The notes beneath the pieces were generated by a model. It saw only the letters and a program-made list of their open reading frames with translations. It was not told the origin of the DNA and did no database searches. The position numbers and the translations under genes were made by a program. From an uncultured Fretibacterium sp. (GTDB lineage: Bacteria > Synergistota > Synergistia > Synergistales > Aminobacteriaceae), in contig CAMVMK010000002.1 of NCBI GenBank assembly GCA_947168585.1, positions 1 to 64,000 on the forward strand: DNA of 64,000 nt. Direction: 5' to 3'. This document shows, one piece after another, positions 29,746 to 35,772 of this stretch (positions are counted from its first letter, which is position 1; each line of letters begins with the position of its first letter).

Positions 29746-30801
29746 TCAATATAACTTAAAATGCTGCCACTTATATTCAAGTTTCGGTCTTGATAAATGT
29801 ATGCTGGCACTGCGTACAAACGGTGCACTGGCAAAAGCAGTATAAATTATTACATCATAATTGCATAATTTCATAATATCTTCAAGACACAAAGGTCCGG
29901 CTTCAAAGCCGAAAAGCAAAATTCTTCCTGCGTTATAAACAGGATAACGTAAGAAATATGCTAAATTAGCTCCGATACCTGCACCGTGAGAACTGTATGA
30001 TTGTAAATTGCAATCTCCAAATATGGCTATCTTAGAAGAATTTGTTTCCTGATTCCAATAATTTACTTTCCGCATGCCGTTCATCAAATAAATTTTATCA
30101 CATTCTTCAGAAAGTATCTCCGGATTACCATAGTCTGACGAATAAATAAGAGCGGGCTCGCATAATAAATTAAAATTATTGTTAATGCCTATTGTAGTTT
30201 GTTTTATGTAATCAGAAATTGCCTTGCCTGCTATTTTTGCACCGAAAGTTGAAATGTGATGTTCCTTAGAAAATAAATTATTGTCATTTTTATGTTCCAT
30301 AAAAACAGGATACATATCTATCGTTTCTATACCAGCTTCAATTACATTTTTAATGTATTTTCTCCATTGAGGCGAATTATTTCTGATGGGGGGGGGGGTA
30401 AAATTATCGCAAATGATTGACGGGTAAATGCAGGCTTTATTTGGTAAAGCGGCATATATAAAGCGGGTATTGTGCTGCTTAAAAAATTCAGATATTATCT
30501 TCAAATGCTCATACGGATACAAACGCTTACCGTTCCAGCCTATTCTCTTAAAATCCATAGGAGATAAATAACTTATTATATGACCATCGATGATATCTCC
30601 GGAAGGAAGATTTACAATTTTGGATCTGAAACTTTTACGCAATAAATCAAATTTTATATATCGTTTTATGATATATTCCCTAAACGGCTTTAATTGATTA
30701 TACCAATTATTATAACCGCCGTTTTCTTTTTCTTCAGAAAGAAGATTTTCAATCTGTTTACTTTGAAAATCCTGAATTGCAGCGTTATTAGCTTTTAACA
30801 T
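29746..30801 (-). CDS. AlgX/AlgJ-type SGNH hydrolase-like protein, possible O-acetyltransferase
   Basis: A 351-residue protein with features of the AlgX/AlgJ SGNH family: FIYAALPNKACIYP, then EHHISTFGAKIAGKA (residues 180-194) where the family has a D-x-H-W motif, and IAIFGDCNLQSYS as the serine-like block, here with Cys and Ser. Such proteins acetylate extracellular polysaccharides. No clear signal peptide is present. Last gene of the surface operon. Three prolines at 136-138 are encoded by a run of eleven C; loss or gain of one base leads to early stops, so the gene may be phase-variable. Confidence 0.65.
   Translation of the reverse strand: MLKANNAAIQDFQSKQIENLLSEEKENGGYNNWYNQLKPFREYIIKRYIKFDLLRKSFRSKIVNLPSGDIIDGHIISYLSPMDFKRIGWNGKRLYPYEHLKIISEFFKQHNTRFIYAALPNKACIYPSIICDNFTPPPIRNNSPQWRKYIKNVIEAGIETIDMYPVFMEHKNDNNLFSKEHHISTFGAKIAGKAISDYIKQTTIGINNNFNLLCEPALIYSSDYGNPEILSEECDKIYLMNGMRKVNYWNQETNSSKIAIFGDCNLQSYSSHGAGIGANLAYFLRYPVYNAGRILLFGFEAGPLCLEDIMKLCNYDVIIYTAFASAPFVRSASIHLSRPKLEYKWQHFKLY
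30388..30398 (-). repeat. C11 homopolymer (G11 on plus) in the SGNH hydrolase-like gene
   Basis: Encodes the PPP at residues 136-138. C10 and C12 both reach stops soon afterwards, giving an on/off switch if slippage occurs. Confidence 0.78.
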
Positions 30802-30805
30802 AGTA

Positions 30806-31399
30806 TTAAAGACCCTTCATAATATTTATATCTCTGTCATTAAACGGCTTTTCACGTTCGGGATGCCACATAGTACCGACAATCGGGAGCGTTTTGTGTC
30901 TTATTTTTTCAATTACTCCGTCATCAGACTGCATTATAACTGATAACTCGTTATTTGCAAGTTCGGTGCATGCTTCATTATGATAGCTGTTTACTTCTGT
31001 TATTCCTTCAATACCGCTTATTTTGTGCCTTACAGCAACATGTCCGGAAACTTTTACTAAATCATTTCCGAAATAATCGAGTATTGACTGCATGCCGCGG
31101 CAAAATCCGTAAAGAGGTATTTTATTTTTTATTGATAATTCAATTAAAATTTTATCGGTTTCATCGCGTTCTGGAGCGTTTCCGCCGTATTTAACCAAAC
31201 TGTTGCCGCCTGTAAGAATTATTTTAGAAGGCTTAATTTCGCTGATAATTTTTTGCATAATTTCGGGTTTATTTGCAATCGGAACAGGTAAATATCCGCA
31301 AGTGTAAATAAAATCAGAAATTCTCTGGTCGGCACAATCACGCCGTTCGCCGTAAGATGTTATAAGCTCTACACGCTGTGTAAAAATAATTATCTCCAT
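30806..31399 (-). CDS. Class I glutamine amidotransferase-like hydrolase, candidate gamma-glutamyl-CDP-amidate hydrolase
   Basis: A 197-residue protein with the nucleophile C100 in GFCRGMQS, the oxyanion region ILTGGNSL and the His/Glu pair H179-x-E181 in MWHPERE. It lies 4 bases before the next gene and 2 bases after the kinase fusion. In Campylobacter jejuni capsule synthesis, Cj1417 of this family releases glutamate from gamma-glutamyl-CDP-amidate to give cytidine diphosphoramidate. The neighbour here supplies the two earlier steps, which favours that role over a general GABA-type hydrolase. Inference from family and context. Confidence 0.75.
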   Translation of the reverse strand: MEIIIFTQRVELITSYGERRDCADQRISDFIYTCGYLPVPIANKPEIMQKIISEIKPSKIILTGGNSLVKYGGNAPERDETDKILIELSIKNKIPLYGFCRGMQSILDYFGNDLVKVSGHVAVRHKISGIEGITEVNSYHNEACTELANNELSVIMQSDDGVIEKIRHKTLPIVGTMWHPEREKPFNDRDINIMKGL

Positions 31400-31401
31400 T
31401 A

Positions 31402-34194
31402 TTATTCAATCCTCAAAATTTTTTCGTGTTTGCAGTCTATAGTTATTTTTTTTGTATTAACTGCATAATTATAAAGATTTGTTCCGACACCTATTGCCGC
31501 AGGGACACTAAATTCAGCGCACCTAATTGCCATATGTGAAGCAGCACCTCCGTATTTTGTAATAAGCCCGGCCGGTTCTTTGGAAAATATCCAATCATAA
31601 CCCGGGTCGGCTTTTTCAATTATAACAATTTTGTTTTCAATTTCAATCTCATTTTTCGTGTCTTCATCGAGATTTACAATATTGCCTGTAATAATTTTTT
31701 CTGTAATAAAATTAGGGCGTGTATCAATATTTTCAATATAAGAAAAGTCCTGCTCCGAGCATATTACCGCAGGAAGAATGATTTCTGAATTTAATTTATA
31801 AAGTCCGCGCCGTTCTTTTATTATTAAGCTCCAAAATTCTTTAAGGCGTTCTATCGAGGTGTAGTATTCCGCCGCATAAATTTCCGGAATTTCGAGATAT
31901 GAAAGGTCTTGAACACTTATACCTGCTATTTTACCAATTTGCTTTATTAATTCTATTGCATAGCTTAAACTTTTTGTAAAAATAAATTTGAAATATTCCC
32001 GCTGTTCCGTTGCTTCTCTTATAAAATTAATTATATTTTCAGCTGTAATTCCATTAATTTTAGCGTCAGAGATTGCTTTATTCAATGCTTTTTCTATTAC
32101 AGCTGTATTATCATATTGTAATTTTGAGTATGTCTTACTTTCTTTTTTTACAAATAAATTATCCATTTGGTCGTAACGCGGGCTTCTAATATTATATGTT
32201 CCGGCGCGTAAATGTCCGTATTTCAAGCAGAAAGCCTCTTTAGACATCTGATTGTTCAAAACACTATGAAAATCTTTATCGTAATCAACAGCTACAGTAT
32301 TTATATTTGAAATAAATAAATTAAAATCTTCAGATCTTATATACCCTTCAGCAGCAAGAGAGCGGCACATAGATTTAGCAATAAAGGCACAACGAGCCTG
32401 TCTTGAAAATTGCCCGGTTCCAAAATTATTTATTGCGTTCAGCAGAGTTTGTATTGATTTTGCAAGCAGTCTGAAGTCGTTATTATCTTTAGTAATGCTT
32501 AAAATATCTAATCTAATGCTTTCCAATTTGTCTAAATCATTGCTGTCTTTTATAAGAATTTCGCTGTATGAATTTATAACTTTTTTAGTTAATTCCTGCA
32601 GGCTTCTTTCAAGCTCAAGAATTTCTTCGGTCGAAAATCCCTCCAGCATCAACTCTGCAAGACGTTTATGTGTTGAAAAATCGTAACAGTTATGAGAAAT
32701 TTCAAACTCTATTTTATCGTGAGCCGATAAATCCTGCTTTAATTTTTGTACATAATAATATTGAAGTCTTGCCGCAAGAGTATCTGAAACAGAAGCCGGA
32801 ATTAGAGCTTCAAAAGAACGTTCTATATTTATATAAGGCTTATTTCCAAAACGGAACATTAATTCTTCTGAAACCTGACGATAGCCCAGCGGGAGCAGTC
32901 CTTCATTCCATGCCCGTTTAGTGATAATTTCACGGTACAAAGAATAATCTAAATTTTTAGGATTATCTCCAATTATTTCAGCAGGATTCCAAAATGCCAT
33001 ATCGGAATAACAGGTTAAGCCGTTTACAGCTCGTTTTTTATAGTTATTCACAGCTTTTTGTGTTGCTTCGCTTACTATTTTATCGTGATTGCTGCGCCCG
33101 AATTTATACGCCGCCGCAAGAGGCCTGACCTGGAAAATTACAATTTCGGCATTGGGATTATTAGTTATTGCAAATTCTATATCTAAAAGTATTCCGGACA
33201 AAAAATCTTCTAATTCCCATACAGCTTCCATTAAAGATTTCCATTTTGAGGGCACATTTTCTCTTGCACTTGAGTGAGCTATCCATGCAGTTTTACCGCT
33301 GAAACCTGAAGTTACTGCATTTGTGCTTCCACTCTCGTCATAATTTATTACATAATAAGGCCGGTTTCTTTGTATATCCCGTGTGAAAATTACCCCAGAA
33401 ATCAGCACATTTTCTGTCTGTTTTTGTATCAAAACCTGTTCATCATTTTGGATATTTTCTCCGTAAGATTCAAGAACGCTTGAAACTGCTGCATTAATTT
33501 TGTCTTTGTCTGCGCTGTTCACGTTCAATACTGAATTAAAATGCCCGGCGTTTGAGCCTTCAAATGCGTCTTCCTGCTTTGATGAACTTCTCACTACAAT
33601 TTTTTCGCCGTTGAAAGTATTTTTTATTTCTTCTGCAATTTTTTCCGCACCATTTCTAAATTCTCCGGCTGTAGTTATATAAATATCTTCTATTTTTGCT
33701 TTTTTTACTATACCCTTAAGAGCCTGAAGAGTGTTTGCTTTTGTAGAGATTATATTGCTGCTTAAATTTTTAGGGCTTATTTCATTTTTATTAAGCGTAT
33801 CCAAAATTGCCTGCGGGGATAATTTTTCGTAATAGTCTACTCTTATAACTTTTCCGCCTATTGTCTCTAAATATTTTTTTGCTCCGATTATTCCCCATTC
33901 ATTTCCTGAATATAAAGATATAACGGCTTCGGGATATTTTTCGTGAAGTTTTTTAAGATTGTCAAGCGGGTCAAACGTAACCTGATGCCATACTTCATCA
34001 ACATATTTTATTCCTTCAAGAACACTGCGGCGCTCTAATTCATTCGAGACATGCGCTCCGAACCAAGCTTCACAGGCTTCATCACTCACAAGCCCGAATA
34101 TGCTTAAATCCGAGCCGTCAGATGCTTTTTTAAGGGCTTTTATATGCCCGAAATGTATGAAATCGGCAAGACCGAAACTATAAGATATATTCAC
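31402..34194 (-). CDS. Cytidylyltransferase fused to PEP-synthase-like L-glutamine kinase candidate
   Basis: A 930-residue fusion. Residues 1-155 are a cytidylyltransferase of the glycerol-3-phosphate/phosphocholine type: H14-F-G-H17, ERRSVLEGIKYVDEV and a closing SSNIISTKA. Residues 160-360 are an ATP-grasp domain as in PEP synthase (VVRSSSKQEDAFEGSNAG). Residues 840-930 are the phosphohistidine swivel domain with H887 in GGAASHMAIRCAE. The 775-residue kinase part has the domain order of Cj1418, which phosphorylates the amide of L-glutamine. The fused transferase would then attach CMP. Start ATG has no strong ribosome-binding sequence. A different PEP-synthase-like activity is possible. Confidence 0.8.
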   Translation of the reverse strand: MNISYSFGLADFIHFGHIKALKKASDGSDLSIFGLVSDEACEAWFGAHVSNELERRSVLEGIKYVDEVWHQVTFDPLDNLKKLHEKYPEAVISLYSGNEWGIIGAKKYLETIGGKVIRVDYYEKLSPQAILDTLNKNEISPKNLSSNIISTKANTLQALKGIVKKAKIEDIYITTAGEFRNGAEKIAEEIKNTFNGEKIVVRSSSKQEDAFEGSNAGHFNSVLNVNSADKDKINAAVSSVLESYGENIQNDEQVLIQKQTENVLISGVIFTRDIQRNRPYYVINYDESGSTNAVTSGFSGKTAWIAHSSARENVPSKWKSLMEAVWELEDFLSGILLDIEFAITNNPNAEIVIFQVRPLAAAYKFGRSNHDKIVSEATQKAVNNYKKRAVNGLTCYSDMAFWNPAEIIGDNPKNLDYSLYREIITKRAWNEGLLPLGYRQVSEELMFRFGNKPYINIERSFEALIPASVSDTLAARLQYYYVQKLKQDLSAHDKIEFEISHNCYDFSTHKRLAELMLEGFSTEEILELERSLQELTKKVINSYSEILIKDSNDLDKLESIRLDILSITKDNNDFRLLAKSIQTLLNAINNFGTGQFSRQARCAFIAKSMCRSLAAEGYIRSEDFNLFISNINTVAVDYDKDFHSVLNNQMSKEAFCLKYGHLRAGTYNIRSPRYDQMDNLFVKKESKTYSKLQYDNTAVIEKALNKAISDAKINGITAENIINFIREATEQREYFKFIFTKSLSYAIELIKQIGKIAGISVQDLSYLEIPEIYAAEYYTSIERLKEFWSLIIKERRGLYKLNSEIILPAVICSEQDFSYIENIDTRPNFITEKIITGNIVNLDEDTKNEIEIENKIVIIEKADPGYDWIFSKEPAGLITKYGGAASHMAIRCAEFSVPAAIGVGTNLYNYAVNTKKITIDCKHEKILRIE

Positions 34195-34248: not shown

Positions 34249-34911
34249 TCAAGACAGGCATTTCACGCACCTAAATCCTTCTGCATATTCGACCTCATTA
34301 GCATAGCCCCAAATGTGATTTCGTTCTATATTTGTTTCAAAAAGACGGTTTAACCTGTTATGTTCAGAACTGTAATTTGATAATGCTTTCTTTTTTTGAT
34401 CTATATACCGGCTTATATCAAAAAAATAAGTAGGATAAAAAACATTATCCAATATATAACCGTTGCTTTGAAATTCAAATATATTTGCACAATGACGGGC
34501 GGCTGTTACACATATACGGCTTGCCTCGACGTGATCTTGATTCATGTCAGTCCCGAAATGAGTGAATAAAGTGTCTATATTGAGATCAAATATAACTTGC
34601 TCAACGCGCTGCATTATTTGAGTATTATAGCAGAGTTTAGAACACTCGACCGGCTCAAAATCACATAATTCAATCATTCCTAATTCTGCGGCAGCTGCTG
34701 CACTCTGCTTTTTAGATGAAGAAAAATCAACAAAAATATTTTTTTGCTTATAAGCTGTTACGTTATCCGTTAAAGTTAATTTATAGACGGTTTTGCCCAT
34801 AGTGCGCAATTTCAAAGCCGTTCCGCCGGCTCCTAATTCGCTGTCATCAAAATGGGCTCCCGCAATAAGTACGTTATTAATATTTTGCAGTAACATAGAA
34901 TGAACCAGCAC
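34249..34911 (-). CDS. PIG-L / LmbE-like deacetylase
   Basis: A 220-residue protein with the metal motif AHFDDSELGAGG at 19-30 (AHPDDE type, H20, D22, D23) and a later FGTDMNQDHVEAS that supplies another His. Family members remove acetyl groups from N-acetylglucosamine-containing molecules. The frame begins at GTG 34911, three bases after the glycosyltransferase stop; an ATG at 34896 is the alternative. Second gene of the surface operon. Confidence 0.85.
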   Translation of the reverse strand: MLVHSMLLQNINNVLIAGAHFDDSELGAGGTALKLRTMGKTVYKLTLTDNVTAYKQKNIFVDFSSSKKQSAAAAAELGMIELCDFEPVECSKLCYNTQIMQRVEQVIFDLNIDTLFTHFGTDMNQDHVEASRICVTAARHCANIFEFQSNGYILDNVFYPTYFFDISRYIDQKKKALSNYSSEHNRLNRLFETNIERNHIWGYANEVEYAEGFRCVKCLS

Positions 34912-34914
34912 TTT

Positions 34915-35772
34915 CTAGGGTTTTAACGATTTCCAAACTCTATACCATTGGTAAGGAGTACATCTTGAAAGTTTCCGTTTAACAGCTGACGGGCTCATTA
35001 ATTTTTCAAAAAATGTCTGATTATCTAATCTCCTTACTGTTTCATAATCTTCAAAACCTCTTATTGAATAATCGATACCAAGCGAATATTTTCTTTCAAA
35101 TTTCATAACGGCATCTTTATTCCATTTTCCTCGATGAATTATGCAGCCTTCCATTGGATCTCCGTATGAAAAAACAGGCTCAGCTCCCCTTATCAAAGTA
35201 TAAAATCTATCCTTGTAGCGTGCGGCTCTTTTAGAACCCCAAACTTCAAACTCCCAAGGGTTTTCGTGAGGTCTTATAAAGCTAATCAATTTTTCTCTGC
35301 GCCAAACAGCGGCTTGGGCATTCAGCTTAAATTCACACTTCGCCGGACGCAATTCAAATCTTTCAAATACATTATCTTTTATATTATTATTTCCGGCAGG
35401 ATAATATGAAAATGTTGCTATATCAGGATTTTCTTCCATCCAGCGTATAGTTTTTTCAAAAAAATCCACATCGACTTCCGAATCGAGCCAAAAATCTTCA
35501 AGAAAAAATAATATATATTTTGTTTTGATTCTTTTAAGTGTTTCAATAAGACGAAATCCCCAAGGAATATTAACGCCCGGCTTGAATAAAGAGAATGTTG
35601 TGATGTTTATGCCGGGAAATTCATAAGATTTTGACTCCGTATTCAACACGACTTTCATGTCAAAATTTTTCCAGTTATCCAGCAAAGCAGTAAAAAAAGC
35701 ATTCCAGCAATCTTCACCGTTATCGTAACTGCTCAAAAGAAAAGTACATAAATCGCTGCTCTCGTGTTTCAA
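34915..35772 (-). CDS. Glycosyltransferase-like protein of the surface operon
   Basis: A 285-residue protein starting MKHESSDLCTFLLSSYDNG. It has the feel of a GT-A fold: ILFFLEDFWLDSEVDVDFF near residue 90 as the metal-binding acidic block, AAVWRREKL and NPWEFEVWGSKRA later, as in small enzymes that decorate lipopolysaccharide. No membrane segment. First gene of the run 35772 to 29746. The sugar donor cannot be read. Ribosome-binding sequence AGGAGC is present 10 bases upstream. Confidence 0.7.
   Translation of the reverse strand: MKHESSDLCTFLLSSYDNGEDCWNAFFTALLDNWKNFDMKVVLNTESKSYEFPGINITTFSLFKPGVNIPWGFRLIETLKRIKTKYILFFLEDFWLDSEVDVDFFEKTIRWMEENPDIATFSYYPAGNNNIKDNVFERFELRPAKCEFKLNAQAAVWRREKLISFIRPHENPWEFEVWGSKRAARYKDRFYTLIRGAEPVFSYGDPMEGCIIHRGKWNKDAVMKFERKYSLGIDYSIRGFEDYETVRRLDNQTFFEKLMSPSAVKRKLSRCTPYQWYRVWKSLKP

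Follow-up and report, generated by a model that had tools for sequence, protein, structure and literature searches.

A phosphoramidate-type gene cassette in an uncultured Fretibacterium, with a diverged, probably accessory, cytidylyltransferase-like domain fused to its predicted glutamine kinase

Introduction

The closest described counterpart of the genes considered here is the Cj1418-Cj1417-Cj1416(-Cj1415) route of Campylobacter jejuni to cytidine diphosphate (CDP)-phosphoramidate 3'-phosphate, which serves the O-methyl phosphoramidate capsule. Homologues of its kinase, its hydrolase and its NTP_transf-type cytidylyltransferase (CT) occur in an uncultured Fretibacterium sp. of the Synergistota, the source of the 64,000-nucleotide stretch analysed in this study (the window; assembly GCA_947168585.1, contig CAMVMK010000002.1, positions 1 to 64,000). 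The window encodes a 930-residue protein in which an N-terminal HxGH domain is joined to the kinase, and a separate hydrolase gene directly downstream. The relatives of this locus keep the C. jejuni order of kinase, hydrolase and Cj1416-type gene. Unlike the C. jejuni system, the window's kinase carries the extra, diverged HxGH domain and the Cj1416-type gene of the genome is unlinked; moreover, no Cj1415-type kinase was found in the genome, and a Cj1419/1420-type methyltransferase is missing beside the cassette. Campylobacterales genomes served as stand-ins for C. jejuni. Their loci (L118, L122 and others) contain methyltransferases, kinase, hydrolase and Cj1416-type enzyme with Cj1415-type genes nearby, and the gene order at L122 is that of cj1420-cj1415.

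A second precedent is Fom1 of fosfomycin biosynthesis together with other phosphoenolpyruvate (PEP) mutases, in which the first enzyme of the pathway, there one of P-C bond formation, likewise bears an N-terminal PF01467 domain. Attached PF01467 or PF12804 domains are common among PEP mutases, and some clusters combine the fused domain with a separate transferase nearby, at times of the PF12804 type (PMC6697681). The main enzyme of the window is a different one.

P-N bonds are rare in biology. A 2022 review still terms the glutamine kinase 'C. jejuni-specific' (PMC9561416), and phosphoramidate without the O-methyl group is known chemically from the lipopolysaccharides of Xanthomonas and Shewanella (PMC3907429). 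An earlier sequence-only reading of this DNA had proposed a phosphoramidate pathway and knew of no report of the modification in this phylum. The open literature searched gave none; key subscription papers lay outside that search, which hence is not proof. At the level of homology the pathway assignment holds, since kinase and hydrolase group with the Campylobacter enzymes. We propose that enzymes for the three opening reactions of the Campylobacter phosphoramidate route are probably all encoded in this genome and that the fused domain is an addition to these, not a replacement of Cj1416.

Results and discussion

The kinase part of the fusion protein

The two genes of central interest lie on the minus strand, separated by 2 bp; their coordinates, strand and lengths had been given correctly before.

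31402..34194, minus strand: whole CT-kinase fusion gene, open reading frame of 930 aa with GTG start
33781..34194, minus strand: N-terminal cytidylyltransferase-like domain, residues 1-138 (PF01467; AF2 fold match; diverged active site)
34144-34155, minus strand: H14-F-G-H17 motif of the fused domain, within the PF01467 match
31411..33762, minus strand: L-glutamine-kinase-type domain, residues 145-928, with ATP-binding, helical middle and phospho-swivel parts (NF004508; tree; AF2)
31534-31536, minus strand: H887 of the phospho-swivel domain (PF00391)
30806..31399, minus strand: gamma-glutamyl-CDP-amidate hydrolase-type class I amidotransferase of 197 aa, with C100, H179 and E181 (NF045546 top model, below cut-off)

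Residues 145-928 match NF004508/PRK05849 at 775 bits (cut-off 501), in an alignment that spans model positions 7-787 of 789. On the same part no PEP synthase model exceeds 42 bits and the rifampin phosphotransferase model gives 28 bits; judged by profile score, the kinase is neither of these enzymes, an outcome that the sequence-only reading had named as one of two that would refute its proposal. The NF004508 cut-off was passed in none of 14 control genomes, and in 19 of 299 Campylobacterales genomes the family is present at 841-1175 bits. Conservation is extensive: H887, the swivel histidine already recognised in the earlier reading, falls inside a PF00391 match (2.2e-11); in a comparison of 99 kinases it and about 75 columns are conserved to 97% or more, and 54 columns are invariant over 39 kinases that include the window's and those of Campylobacterales (e.g., W402-N-P, H492-D-K-x-E-F, H661-x-R, R732-E-x2-K). 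A search by sequence found no solved structure of the glutamine kinase family. The AF2 model of the kinase (predicted local distance difference test, 88.4) places an ATP-binding domain first, a helical region in the middle and the phospho-His domain last, which is also the domain order of rifampin phosphotransferase, the top whole-length fold match at only 14% identity. By homology it is well supported that the kinase part belongs to the family of the Campylobacterales glutamine kinases, and ATP-dependent phosphorylation of glutamine is its predicted activity.

The hydrolase

Among 18,950 NCBIfam models, the one for gamma-glutamyl-CDP-amidate hydrolase (NF045546) scores highest on the 197-aa protein, at 112 bits compared with 41 for the next; kinship to Cj1417, on which the earlier proposal depended, is thus found, and a plain glutamine amidotransferase or PuuD is set aside. 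All 92 relatives in the alignment share the triad C100, H179 and E181 named in that proposal, and a hydrolase of this type is nearby or fused at 82 of 90 kinase loci, some of which overlap. Identity to the hydrolase of L118 is 33% over 195 aa.

A separate Cj1416-type enzyme

The window operon contains no Cj1416-type gene. The same genome has one on another contig (C15:1573-2355; PF12804, 9.9e-15), the product of which is 36% identical over 253 aa to the Cj1416-type protein of L118. Its neighbours are gspG/H-like genes, assigned by eye, and rho. Close homologues of the C15 protein (E <= 1e-40) occur in 4 of 188 Synergistota genomes, exactly the four with a CT-kinase fusion; the kinase or cassette is found in five of the 188, and simple arithmetic puts the chance of all four carriers falling among these five at about 1e-7. 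An origin of the C15 gene from chimeric assembly is unlikely, for its presence tracks the kinase exactly and the Rho protein encoded on the same contig shares 78-83% identity with full-length Rho proteins of the same genus.

The arrangement elsewhere is consistent. All 21 other readable CT-fusion loci possess a Cj1416-type gene; in most of them it is the gene that immediately follows the hydrolase, and the usual arrangement is the Campylobacter order kinase-hydrolase-Cj1416. One further locus, L058, was left out because its sequence ends too early. Cultured bacteria with the CT-kinase architecture include Anaerovibrio sp. JC8 (L012) and Halanaerobium polyolivorans (L019). On the tree, the Cj1416-type genes of CT-fusion loci interleave with those of CT-less loci (L069, L070, L078, L079), so the Cj1416-type enzyme apparently serves alike with and without a fused CT domain. 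These observations support the view that phosphoglutamine cytidylyltransferase is a separate and unlinked gene in this genome, distinct from the fused domain.

The sequence-only reading had instead taken kinase and phosphoglutamine cytidylyltransferase to be a single polypeptide that replaces Cj1418 and Cj1416. That the kinase carries a fused PF01467 domain, and that the window operon has no Cj1416-type gene, both speak for such a replacement. It is nevertheless rejected as very improbable, given the separate gene in this genome and at 21 of 21 readable fusion loci, along with the degraded active site of the fused domain.

The fused HxGH domain

Residues 1-138 match PF01467 within its cut-off (E 6.7e-5), confirming the earlier recognition of a cytidylyltransferase-like domain around H14FGH17. 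The nearest fold of the AF2 domain is the cytidylyltransferase domain of Fom1 (5x3d; TM score 0.82, root-mean-square deviation 2.4). In HxGH cytidylyltransferases the conserved Lys, the Asp of the GDDW motif and the SST/STT residues bind CTP. The window's domain has F45 at the Lys position, GNEW for GDDW with E99 in the Asp column, and SPQ for SST. Loss of these residues is general among the fused domains: the Lys is K or R in 27 of 27 other CTs and never K in 22 fused domains; the GDDW Asp is D in 25 of 27 other CTs, compared with 6 of 22; and SST is changed to S-P. Since the Lys, invariant elsewhere, is lost along with the Asp of GDDW and SST, the domain has probably diverged to an accessory role. 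On the tree, the fused domains make up a single clade on a long branch, apart from the domains of Fom1 and the other PEP mutases, and descent from CTs fused to PEP mutases is disfavoured (approximately unbiased test of joint grouping, p 0.02; long branches).

Divergence of the domain is not the same as freedom from constraint. R55 is kept in 22 of 22 fused domains, and R55, Q71, D75, N79, Y121 and S126 are nearly or fully invariant among them. This strong constraint, together with the HxGH motif kept in 21 of 22, could point to an active nucleotidyltransferase for another step, such as activation of an acceptor or carrier phosphate, with phosphoglutamine left to the Cj1416-type enzyme. Fom1, besides being the top structural match, offers a precedent in which the CTP transferase for a later step is joined to the enzyme that opens phosphonate synthesis, and the PEP mutase clusters with fused and separate transferases agree with it, as does the observation that CT-less loci within the kinase clade also lack Cj1416-type genes. 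The loss of the three CTP-binding elements stands against an active enzyme, and the absence of GxGxR (by eye) from the N-terminal domains of a second kinase lineage fits accessory roles better. We regard activity of this kind as possible yet unlikely, and prefer the diverged accessory domain, most likely one that would bind a nucleotide or a pathway intermediate in control, docking or channelling.

The second lineage just mentioned comprises kinases L007, L075, L076, L077 and L116, which have an N-terminal Cj1416-like domain, with GxGxR lost in all four that were read by eye; an intact, separate Cj1416-type gene is present in 5 of 5. Degraded transferase-like domains have consequently been joined to the kinase at least twice, and their recurrent fusion raises the question of pathway control or channelling. 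Other fusions of the same domain type were seen in Synergistota. PEP mutase-PF01467 fusions (L153:589-1881, L158:472-1776, L162:487-2493) include one triple with PF12804, and the SST motif is degraded in their CT domains as well. A radical SAM-like protein with a C-terminal PF01467-type cytidylyltransferase domain occurs in Synergistota of the same genus (L141, L142, L146, L147).

The proposed pathway and its later steps

Homology, gene order, co-occurrence and residue loss are what the data show; each reaction, its product, the acceptor and the function of the extra domain are inferred. The kinase part of the 930-aa protein would N-phosphorylate glutamine with ATP; the C15 enzyme would add CMP from CTP to give gamma-glutamyl-CDP-amidate; and from this the 197-aa hydrolase would set free cytidine diphosphoramidate. 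The window's genome (93.9% complete) gave no match to a Cj1415-type kinase at E <= 1e-5, and none was found in most other genomes with such N-terminal domains on the kinase (one weak 28% match). The donor is for this reason probably CDP-phosphoramidate itself, which would decorate a surface glycan via a transferase. A CT or N-terminal NTP-like domain and a Cj1415-type gene appear mutually exclusive (22 versus 0; the gene accompanies 22 of 29 kinases that lack the domain; Fisher 1e-8), a lead only, as the tree holds no more than 2-3 independent contrasts.

Several observations weigh against the proposed pathway. Identity between the window's kinase and those of Campylobacterales is only about 35%, and glutamine as its substrate is hence predicted rather than proven. 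The 112 bits of the hydrolase lie under the curated NF045546 cut-off of 250, which the counterparts at L118 (325) and L122 (315) pass and that of Helicobacter L071 (237) approaches; the protein accordingly counts as a homologue with matching gene neighbours and not as a certified equivalog. The genome is a draft of 110 contigs, and its Cj1416-type gene is unlinked. No phosphoramidate transferase was identified, and no genome-wide search for Cj1421/1422-type transferases was made; nor does the window operon contain a Cj1419/1420-type methyltransferase gene. Lastly, the retention of HxGH in nearly all fused domains makes a domain with neither a catalytic nor a nucleotide role hard to reconcile.

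The low identity to the Campylobacterales enzymes (33-36%) and the sub-threshold hydrolase would also suit a kinase acting on a substrate other than glutamine, in a cassette that makes a different N- or O-phosphate, activates it with CTP and releases it by the hydrolase-like protein. We consider this improbable: in many phyla the three partners recur together, arranged as in Campylobacter, the kinase scores above its family cut-off, and the shared invariant residues extend beyond the generic ATP and phospho-His motifs. The phosphoramidate assignment is retained, and the window presents a directly testable case of it.

Origin and spread of the cassette

The kinase and hydrolase genes belong to a run of five minus-strand genes (35772-29746) with gaps of 3, 54, 2 and 4 bp. 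Its GC content is 0.349, to be compared with a mean of 0.395 (standard deviation 0.011, minimum 0.372) in 6-kb windows elsewhere in the 64,000 nucleotides, and the five genes probably constitute a compact, imported and co-transcribed unit. On the kinase tree, the window's protein falls beside L011 (Lachnospiraceae) and L012 (Anaerovibrio), with a value of 98 for the group, and apart from two Synergistota sequences of the same genus. Horizontal transfer is likely from this placement among Firmicutes kin and from the low GC. The C15 protein is nearest to the Cj1416-type protein of L011 on its own tree; the two trees agree, so both genes probably came in together, within a single cassette, and lost their linkage afterwards.

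These data point to a spread of the enzyme set among both gut and environmental bacteria. As a tentative generalisation, which we hold with less confidence than the pathway assignment, CTP-activated phosphoramidate surface chemistry may be no speciality of Campylobacter but a widely transferred cassette in many phyla (gut Synergistota, Firmicutes and Gastranaerophilales among them). In one large branch the kinase would have gained a cytidylyltransferase domain that was turned to another use (allosteric control, channelling or a new nucleotidyl step), in parallel to the PEP mutase fusions.

A different fusion was seen in 25 kinases (L024-L057, L061; e.g., L033:6989-10021) of Lachnospiraceae, Clostridia and Bacteroides, in which the hydrolase is attached at the C-terminus. 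These proteins share the kinase clade and hydrolase family of the window; they have no CT domain, and no Cj1416-type gene was seen nearby. The fused pair might yield free phosphoramidate with no nucleotide step in between. Lachnospiraceae kinases L041, L044, L045, L051, L055 and L056 have a conserved neighbourhood with no hydrolase or Cj1416-type gene nearby. The kinase is also encoded on two short contigs labelled viral, possibly bacterial in origin (L006, IMG/VR; L126, MT837632.1).

Neighbouring genes

The remaining genes of the five-gene unit are the following.

29746..30801, minus strand: AlgX-like SGNH-fold protein, cassette-associated (PF16822, 3.9e-8; homologues in or beside the cassette in L011, L023 and L070)
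34249..34911, minus strand: PIG-L family deacetylase (PF02585, 1.9e-9; BshB1-like at 58 bits, below cut-off)
34915..35772, minus strand: possible glycosyltransferase, unproven (only sub-threshold TIGR04440, E 0.09)

Pfam bears out the deacetylase and AlgX-like labels of the sequence-only reading. Its glycosyltransferase is left unproven, with no Pfam match and a sole NCBIfam match far under cut-off. The neighbours vary between cassettes and include LicD (L012, L018, L020, L023), TagF-like (L011), sulfotransferase-like (L019, L022) and SGNH/AlgX-like proteins (L011, L023, L070 and the window); they may be regarded as candidates for transfer to different acceptors. A family of about 190 aa without Pfam match, followed by a formyltransferase-like protein, lies inside cassettes at L069:5014-6305 and also at L063, L064, L068, L072, L073, L079 and L086. 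The AlgX-like proteins (window, L023:10449-11571, L070:9849-10928) have G-D-C or G-N-C at the position of the Ser nucleophile, G-D-C in the case of the window, and the gene of L023 is apparently split across two frames.

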